Origin: Albifimbria verrucaria | Taxonomy: Eukaryota > Ascomycota > Sordariomycetes > Hypocreales > Stachybotryaceae | NCBI GenBank assembly: GCA_020081605.1 | Contig: JAHREC010000049.1 | Coordinates: forward strand, 1,798,001-1,862,000 | Direction of reading: 5' to 3' | Length of the DNA stretch: 64,000 nucleotides | In this document: positions 35,443-37,682 of the stretch, piece by piece | How the letters are laid out: every line of letters starts with the position of its first letter | How positions within the stretch are numbered: position 1 is the stretch's first letter | Program-made: the position numbers and the translations under genes | The notes under the pieces: model-generated | Database searches by the model: none | Seen by the model: only the letters and a program-made list of their open reading frames with translations | Told to the model about the DNA's origin: nothing

Positions 35443-36710
35443 GGTGAGGATCTGGTGGGCGGCTTAGGCCGGATGAGCTGAAGAGAGGAATATAGTGATC
35501 TTGTGCTGCTCGAATCGCCGTCGGGTGTGTGGCGAACTGATGCGCTCCCCTCTCGCTTTTTGCGGTCAAGGAATTGCGACAGCAGGCGATGCTACACTGT
35601 CGAGCGCGCCGTGTCCGTCTTTAATTGAAGCAGTGCGGATAGCTGTCTTATCAATACGGGGCGAGGCTCCACGATAGTAAGCAAGCCACAACCAATTCAG
35701 CACAAAACGCCAGCGACGACACGGTCTGTCCCACCCGCAGCTACGACGATGCTGAGATTGCGGATTTCTCGGAGAGGGATGCTTTTGTGAATTGAGGAGG
35801 AAATCCAGGAGAAGCGTTCGCTCAGCTGGAAGACCCAGTTGCTAGGACATGCAAATGCAGGGTCGGGTGGGATGAGGTGCAGCACAAGCAAGCGAGAAAA
35901 AGGCTTCGCCAGTGCTAACCTGAGCTCAATTCAGCCAGTGAGCGCCCAGGAGGGACGGAACAGATGGGGAGGCTGGGGGGTTTCAAGCCATTTTTCCTCG
36001 CATTGTGCGCTGCTGATCCGTCCCCCATCAATCCTTCACCGTAAATTCGAGTGGCTGGATGCAAGAGGGAGGAGACAGGCTGCAGGGATTCGATGTTGCT
36101 GATTGAGACGGGGCCTTGGTGGGTGGGTTCCCGGGGTAGCTTAACGGGACGCTACGGCACGACAGAGGAGTTAGTCTGTGGATGGTTTGGCGTAGTGTTT
36201 GGTCAGGGAAGGGTTTGAATTTGAGTATTTGGTACCTATCGTATTCTGCATTGGGTGAGCATGTGCTACTCTAGGGTAGGGTCGCTATCTGGTGGAAGAC
36301 AACGTCTAAGAGGTTCTCATAGTGGCATGTCGATTAACCGGATAGGGTAATAGAAGCTTTGTTTTTATCATAGGACTCTTGTTCAGTCGGTCAGGTAGGT
36401 AGTTATGAGGTTCATGTCTCGTCAGGATATTGTTTATAGATATTGCCCTGTAAATCAAGCATTTCGACAATATATTACACGTATGAATGTAAGTACACGG
36501 ATCAATTGATGGGTAAGCGAGTGCGATAAGTACCCGTTTGCAACCGCTATGCATAAGAAGCGAGAAACACCATAATTGATTTAATGTATAATTGGCAGTC
36601 CCTTTGTATATATTGTTTAAAAAACAAAAAGCGAGCATCTTCAACTGAACCCAATCGTTCCTTCATGGCCTACATAGCATGTTGACGAAAAGTGCAAAAA
36701 GAAAGTATGC
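35443..36710. other. Intergenic region upstream of His-rich gene
   Basis: Probably contains the His-rich gene promoter. AT content rises towards the tRNA gene. No gene recognised. Confidence 0.5.
36696..36700 (-). terminator. RNA polymerase III terminator of the tRNA gene
   Basis: On the minus strand a run of five T follows the tRNA 3' end by about ten bases, preceded by a TTTC. That is the usual Pol III termination signal and supports the tRNA strand and end. Confidence 0.7.
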
Positions 36711-36839
36711 TAGCAATTGCACGTTTCGATCGTGCGACCTCCGGGTTATGAGCCCGGCTAATTTGGGAATTAGCTTCATGCTTGTGGAACTCGGTGGTTC
36801 AAGTAGTGACTTACCGCGCTTCCACTGCGCCAAATTGCT
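36711..36839 (-). tRNA. Initiator tRNA-Met (CAU) with a 57-nt insertion between positions 26 and 27
   Basis: Carries Met to the ribosomal P site at start codons, if functional. Acceptor stem AGCAATT (36839-36833) pairs perfectly with AATTGCT (36718-36712), D stem GCGC/GCGC with loop AGTGGAA, anticodon stem CCGGG/CCCGG with loop CTCATAA (anticodon CAT), T stem GCACG/CGTGC with loop ATCGAAA. Initiator hallmarks are the A1-U72 pair, three consecutive G-C pairs next to the anticodon loop, and A54/A60 in the T loop. A-box (TGGCGCAGTGG) and B-box are intact. The mature RNA would be 72 nt plus CCA. The insertion 36758-36814 does not sit at 37/38, where nuclear tRNA introns belong. The acceptor stem is AT-rich compared with known fungal initiators, but every pair is kept, arguing against simple decay. 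Confidence 0.85.
36758..36814 (-). other. Intron-like insertion in tRNA-iMet with spliceosomal signals
   Basis: 57 nt, beginning GTAAGT and ending AAATTAG, with GCTAAT (36774-36769) 12 nt from the end as a branch-site look-alike. Length and signals match the mRNA introns of this window (45-175 nt, many 50-65). The junction is ambiguous by one base because G flanks both ends. Internal pairing potential includes GCTAATT with AATTAGC around CCCA at the 3' end and GAAC with GTTC around CACCGA. Confidence 0.7.
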
Positions 36840-37682
36840 TTGATGCGTTGAAAACTAGGCTTAACATTTTAGTTTATATCCAGAAGCACATTCTCTCAAG
36901 CTGGCAGCCTTCGAAGCACTCTACTATCCTTCTCATGGTTGATGTGGTCCATTGTCTGAGTGGTGTCGTCACAACACATTGTGAAAACATCATTCCATGT
37001 TGCATTTATCAATTGGATGATCGTTGAATCGGATTGGGGTTTCTTTGAGTCTTCTCCGCTTCATCGATATCTAGACATTTGTGTAGAACAATACAGCATC
37101 CATCTTCACCAATTACTGCTGCCACCCAATCTGTCGCTCTCTCAAGATGCTGCACCCTGATGCTTACCTTATCCAAGATGCGGTTTCAGCAACCCCGTCC
37201 CCTGTGGCTGTCCCTCAAAGGGGCTAGCGGGGCACATTCTCCCCTGCCTGTTACTGCGGCCAATGCTGTACATTAGGGGTCAGGCAAGGCACAGGTAAAC
37301 CAATGTAGCTAACCCAAAAGAGGTACCTGCACCGTAACAGGTACCCTTTGTCAGAAATCTTCGTTGCGACCTGGGCCCAAGAACCCTTGTGTTCCAGACG
37401 CTGATGGCAAAGTGGCCACGATAGATTATTTCTTTTCGTCCCTGGGTGGTCCCTTTTTCTCTTTCCCTCCTCTCGCTTCTGAACAGGTTGCAATTCGACC
37501 TCGTCCACGGAGATCGCTACGCCGGGATACTTCCCCGGACCTGACTTAGCTCATCCCAGCAGCGCTCTTTCTGGGCTACCTGAGACCACCTGGCCTCAAT
37601 CGCTGTTCTGGCGGCGAGTTAGAAGTGCTATCCAGCCCAACCTCAACCGCCACCTCGCATTGTCCCGCCGTATTATGCCAGC
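36840..37682. promoter_or_regulatory. Upstream region of tRNA-iMet and ERJ5-like gene
   Basis: Separates the divergently transcribed tRNA and DnaJ genes. It should contain the Pol II promoter of the latter. No open frame of note. Confidence 0.5.

Follow-up and report, generated by a model that had tools for sequence, protein, structure and literature searches.

The question raised by this locus is whether a gene for the initiator tRNA-Met of Albifimbria verrucaria can be interrupted by an intron of the mRNA type and still be in use. The introns of tRNAs and those of mRNAs are regarded as two unconnected kinds, each with a machinery of its own, and to our knowledge no spliceosomal intron has been documented in a tRNA, the precedent being the U6 gene of fission yeast. 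The locus lies in the window, i.e., the whole stretch of 64,000 nucleotides that was analyzed (G000:C36:1798001-1862000), which belongs to an assembly of 48.4 Mb in 41 contigs.

The minus strand from 36839 to 36711 was read as three pieces of 25, 57, and 47 nt, and a tRNA gene with an insert (hereafter the window gene) is confirmed there. The first-pass annotation had placed the interruption of a complete initiator tRNA between positions 26 and 27 with the strand unstated; the insert does follow position 26, on the minus strand. The features of the locus, in the direction of the gene, are:

36840..36845, minus strand: CATCAA directly 5' of exon 1, a motif recurrent upstream of tRNA genes in this genome
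36815..36839, minus strand: 5' exon of tRNA-iMet, positions 1-26 (5' strand of the acceptor stem, D arm, G26), 25 nt
36822..36832, minus strand: A box TGGCGCAGTGG, read from the sequence
36758..36814, minus strand: 57-nt insert GTAAGT...CTAAT...TAG, a spliceosomal-type intron at 26/27 by consensus and length
36757..36774, minus strand: predicted 7-bp hairpin GCTAATTCCCAAATTAGC with the branch point and the 3' splice site, from the predicted fold; its last base is the first base of exon 2
36711..36757, minus strand: 3' exon of tRNA-iMet, positions 27-73 (anticodon arm with CAU, T arm with ATCGAAA, 3' strand of the acceptor stem, discriminator A), 47 nt, also covered by the genome-wide anticodon-arm patterns
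36723..36731, minus strand: B box GATCGAAAC, read from the sequence
36694..36700, minus strand: Pol III terminator TTTTTGC, a motif common downstream of tRNA genes in this genome

Joining of the two outer pieces (25 and 47 nt) gives a full initiator tRNA-Met cloverleaf in which 21 of 21 stem pairs are Watson-Crick (acceptor 7/7, D 4/4, anticodon 5/5, T 5/5), as had been claimed for all four stems. The two halves pair perfectly, by which two unrelated adjoining pieces were ruled out. The loops are AGTGGAA (D), CTCATAA (anticodon CAT), and ATCGAAA (T). Eukaryotic initiator tRNAs-Met are marked by A1-U72, by an anticodon stem that closes on its loop with three G-C pairs, by the anticodon CAU, and by A54 and A60 in the T loop. 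The window gene carries every one of these marks, the three G-C pairs as GGG/CCC. A54U55C56 is likewise given as an initiator feature (PMC3978253). The ATCGAAA loop, the three G-C pairs next to the anticodon loop, and the A and B boxes were all found where they had been proposed, and the TTTTT of the proposed terminator starts after 10 nt downstream of the gene. The anticodon loop CTCATAA is unbroken and the insert stands after position 26, which sets it apart from a canonical nuclear tRNA intron at 37/38. The boundary of the insert can be shifted by 1 nt with an identical tRNA as the result (G on both sides), and one of the two placements gives exact GT..AG ends. The gene should be recognizable by the sequence word GGCGCAGYGGAAGCG followed, after a gap of 0-200 nt, by GGGCYCATAACCC.

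The insert starts with GTAAGT and ends with TAG, and the branch A of its CTAAT is followed by 12 nt, in agreement with the signals that had first been read in it. Among the 127,888 57-mers on both strands of the window it was the only one to match a splice consensus that begins with GTRNGY, closes with YAG, and places the branch A of CTNAY 8-20 nt before its end. The consensus falls exactly at the boundaries dictated by the tRNA, and a chance origin of the splice signals was ruled out by this frequency of one 57-mer in 127,888.

For comparison, 19 candidate mRNA introns of the window were picked from 29 candidates; the 10 omitted ones overlapped another candidate, ran antisense to the gene for SDHA, or were set aside as long or uncertain. 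The 19 introns are 53-95 nt long (median 60 nt), and the 57 nt of the insert lie inside this range, which upholds the earlier statement that its size is like that of the local mRNA introns. In a weight matrix built from the same introns, a comparison that is partly circular because they were chosen with a similar consensus, the insert scored 17.8 vs. 15.2-26.6 for the introns, 18 of which scored higher. By this matrix one of 127,886 57-mers scores as high as the insert, presumably the insert itself. Introns with like signals occupy four gaps in the protein alignment of SDHA (two caught by the pattern and two found by eye, one of the four with GTAAGA); among the best matches listed for the 432-aa SDHA query were Metarhizium rileyi and Fusarium anthophilum with 95% identity over 94% of its length, which points to an ascomycete, probably of the Hypocreales. 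By its GT-AG ends, 5' splice site, CTNAY branch point, and local length the insert has the sequence properties of a U2-type intron, and its GT-AG signals favor the spliceosome as the processing machine. A run of four T is absent from the insert, a weak argument for passage of Pol III because 13 of the 19 mRNA introns lack one as well. Short T runs as a sign of adaptation to Pol III were rejected, since those of seven of the 19 mRNA introns are equally short.

The fold predicted for the unspliced RNA retains the acceptor stem, the T stem, and four pairs of the anticodon stem, with the D arm paired to the insert; 6 of 200 shuffled sequences fold as well, and at a frequency of 0.014 for the best structure the details are uncertain. 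A 7-bp hairpin GCTAATTCCCAAATTAGC is predicted in this precursor fold, inside which the branch point and the 3' splice site would lie, and six of its pairs recur when the insert is folded alone. On its own the insert was not more stable than its shuffles (z -0.70). As a side observation, exon 1 contains, in nested order, the complements of two words of the insert, TTCCAC and CCAAATT (a post hoc finding, equaled by 8 of 2000 shuffles of the insert), possibly as a trace of origin or as an alternative precursor fold.

The flanks of the gene were compared with 46 tRNA genes that ARAGORN found in the examined loci longer than 2500 bases (loci of the window gene excluded, duplicates merged); these are part of the genome's set, 63 of 1591 candidates having been scored in the Rfam search. 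TTTTTGC occurs within 45 nt downstream of 23 of the 46 genes vs. 0.3% of random 45-mers of the window, and CATCAA at -25 to -1 of 10 of them vs. 0.8% of random 25-mers of the window; both motifs are present at the window gene. The upstream word MCAA, present at 18 of the 46 genes, is absent from its last 25 upstream bases. More generally, the Pol III terminator in this fungus often consists of a run of four or five T and a following GC; TTTTGC was found within 45 nt downstream of 30 of the 46 genes. A TATA-like word at -39 was rejected as support for Pol III transcription; it proves little because such words are rare among the other tRNA genes (2/46). From the start of the A box to that of the B box the window gene measures 101 nt vs. 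44 nt in a class I iMet gene (see below) and 75-78 nt in five elongator tRNA-Met genes, and the window gene also exceeds a tRNA-Lys gene (94 nt) and a tRNA-Leu gene (82 nt) and hence all distances measured.

To place the window gene among the tRNA-Met genes of this fungus the genome was searched with several patterns. The word GGGCYCATAACCC had eight matches vs. two for the reversed control: the window gene, six intronless tRNA-Met genes, and one place without a tRNA according to ARAGORN. The same seven genes were found with a pattern of CAU plus T arm (control 0). The six intronless genes (class I: L002, L003, L004, L005, L006, and L008 on contigs C4, C8, and C10) have the D arm AGCTCAGGGGAAGAGC, with one G fewer in the D loop of three of the six, and the T loop ATCGAGA; they were taken as initiator-type because they share A1-U72, GGG/CCC, A54, and A60. 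The exon 1 word GGCGCAGTGGAAGCGCG separates the window gene from the class I D arm. Its D-arm word GGCGCAGYGGAAGCGYG, which we take to be the common eukaryotic initiator form, was found at 43 places in the genome with up to two mismatches (reversed control 31) and exactly in the window gene only. A second copy of the window gene's class was thus not found across the genome with GGGCYCATAACCC, the CAU-plus-T-arm pattern, or GGCGCAGYGGAAGCGYG. The five elongator tRNA-Met genes carry introns of 29-32 nt at 37/38. Another tRNA-Met pattern had at least 104 matches (reversed control 58), of which two listed ones were examined and one was an elongator tRNA-Met; because this pattern overlooked four of the five elongator genes, a further unusual tRNA-Met gene could be missed. 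The gene counts rest on patterns that may miss genes whose anticodon arm is altered or which are interrupted in other ways. With at least six intronless initiators of another class and five elongator tRNA-Met genes, the window gene is an extra initiator, the seventh, in a sequence class of its own. Intact intronless copies were one half of what the first-pass annotation had named as grounds for calling the locus an interrupted pseudogene; six were found, but they belong to the other class.

The stems were compared with those of one class I gene (L004). Fourteen of the 21 pairs are identical and seven are changed on both sides with pairing kept; none is changed on one side only, and three differences lie outside the stems. 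Broken pairs or lost invariant bases, the marks of a tRNA pseudogene, were not seen in the window gene. Such compensated changes would be the product of two working tRNA lineages and not of a drifting gene. The lack of decay and the seven fully compensated pairs argue against an old pseudogene; they do not date the insert, because a very recent silencing would look alike.

The closest known case is the U6 gene of Schizosaccharomyces pombe, which is transcribed by Pol III and contains a spliced mRNA-type intron (PMC10484740). Common to both would be a spliceosomal-type intron in a small RNA gene transcribed by Pol III, in the U6 case removed in maturation. They differ in that U6 belongs to the spliceosome, where its intron is believed to have arisen by reverse splicing (PMC10484740); the host here is a tRNA. 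In A. verrucaria U6 had one match among the scored candidates (47 of 3037), continuous, full-length (96 nt), and intronless, and so it does not provide a second spliced Pol III gene in this fungus. No report of a spliceosomal intron in a tRNA gene was met in the titles and abstract openings of the literature searched, in which subscription journals are mostly not included. Exact-pattern scans of viral and prokaryotic collections returned neither the split gene nor the intronless iMet control, and because this control also found nothing they say nothing on fungi; the class I iMet pattern had no match in the viral collection, and blastn against phages gave no result.

In default mode ARAGORN found no tRNA in the whole window, as did Rfam at the gathering threshold. 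With introns allowed ARAGORN itself returned the same outer ends under the name tRNA-Gly(TCC), and an intron-bearing tRNA-Gly(UCC) gene would be the literal reading of that result. However, it draws its anticodon from within the insert and gives up the perfectly paired arm CCGGG-CTCATAA-CCCGG, and the tRNA-Gly(TCC) genes found in locus L013 have quite different sequences, so that we consider it hardly credible. A further alternative is a noncanonical tRNA intron that the endonuclease and ligase of tRNA splicing would excise at a new site. Canonical introns, such as those of the five elongator genes, likewise lie between the A box and the B box, although the insert differs from them in its position at 26/27, its 57 nt, its GT-AG ends, and the lack of the strict pairing geometry of an endonuclease site. 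Ectopic introns outside 37/38, including the D arm and the anticodon stem, are described from red algae, nucleomorphs, and archaea and are attributed to the splicing endonuclease (PMC4090602; PMC3978253), and archaeal noncanonical introns are discussed with tRNAscan-SE 2.0 (PMC8450103). The word stem "spliceosom" is absent from PMC4090602. A bulge-helix-bulge (four-base helix, three-base bulges), tested in its strict form and without a canonical intron as positive control, was not found at the junctions, the best of the offsets tried giving two of four central pairs; this is not decisive because many nucleomorph introns form no defined bulge-helix-bulge (PMC3978253). The endonuclease route does not need GTAAGT, a branch point, or TAG, all five elongator introns of this genome sit at 37/38, and we regard such a new site, which the first-pass annotation had also offered, as improbable. 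Its suggestion of an introner-like insertion fared no better. Introners are a route by which a ready-made spliceosomal intron is placed at a new site, which is their likeness to the insert; they differ in occurring as many similar copies. For the insert, genome-wide searches with the whole gene and with the 57-mer at E-values up to 10 (very common words skipped) returned the locus itself and no further copy. What stands of that interpretation is the initiator identity, the position at 26/27, and the spliceosomal look of the insert.

The main rival is a recently silenced initiator gene, i.e., an intron or look-alike DNA landed in a working gene whose RNA is now not made or not spliced, with decay not yet begun. 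The six other intronless initiator-type genes mean that loss of the window gene would cost nothing, its class has no second copy by the genome patterns, and a very young pseudogene would also be expected to keep perfect stems; on the other hand, the full splice signals are intact and no pair is broken by substitution. A recent copying event left no trace, since a source copy of the insert was not found in the genome. We regard silencing as a real yet rather unlikely explanation. Far less likely, and only a shade above the endonuclease route, is a locus that does not act as a tRNA, either as the intron of a Pol II transcript through tRNA-like sequence or with the tRNA as a chromatin or regulatory element. 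A reading frame with a DnaJ domain lies about 0.9 kb away on the other strand, and an upstream or antisense transcript is therefore possible; yet the boundaries of the insert coincide with those of the tRNA, a tRNA-gene terminator and CATCAA are present, and the gene is crossed only by short reading frames from start to stop, of 56, 54, and 81 aa, of which the 81-aa frame extends beyond it. In a protein search with the 54-aa frame of the plus strand no protein shared three words. Taken against these, the gene anatomy, the preserved stems, the splice signals, the Pol III signals of the locus, and the lack of a strict endonuclease site were all observed here, and we lean slightly towards a single-copy Pol III gene for the cytoplasmic initiator tRNA-Met with one spliceosomal intron at 26/27. 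Against this reading speak the low-end matrix score, the splice signals held in a hairpin, the A-to-B distance of 101 nt, and the lack of MCAA, and the six intronless genes make the window gene dispensable in principle. That a working initiator is matured here by the mRNA spliceosome and not by the tRNA endonuclease, and is kept beside a class of initiators independent of the spliceosome, we hold to be evenly balanced.

From the sequence we infer that a gene spliced in this manner would be transcribed, spliced, and used in initiation as follows. Directed by the A and B boxes, Pol III would initiate a short way upstream of the gene and terminate at TTTTTGC. GTAAGT, the CTAAT branch point, and TAG would then be recognized by the major spliceosome, upon which the 57 nt would leave as a lariat and the exons of 25 and 47 nt would be joined. 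The spliced tRNA would then fold and its ends would be processed.

Removal of the insert by the spliceosome, if true, would be new, and would add to the kinds of Pol III transcripts processed by the spliceosome. ARAGORN and Rfam missed or misnamed the window gene, so that further such genes may be hidden; tRNA finders could in general miss or misname tRNA genes spliced in this way. A tRNA spliced by the spliceosome would further show that tRNA genes can gain an intron and tolerate it. For the fungus, the initiator of the window gene would depend for its production on successful splicing of a Pol III transcript, and the supply of initiator would to that extent be tied to splicing capacity.
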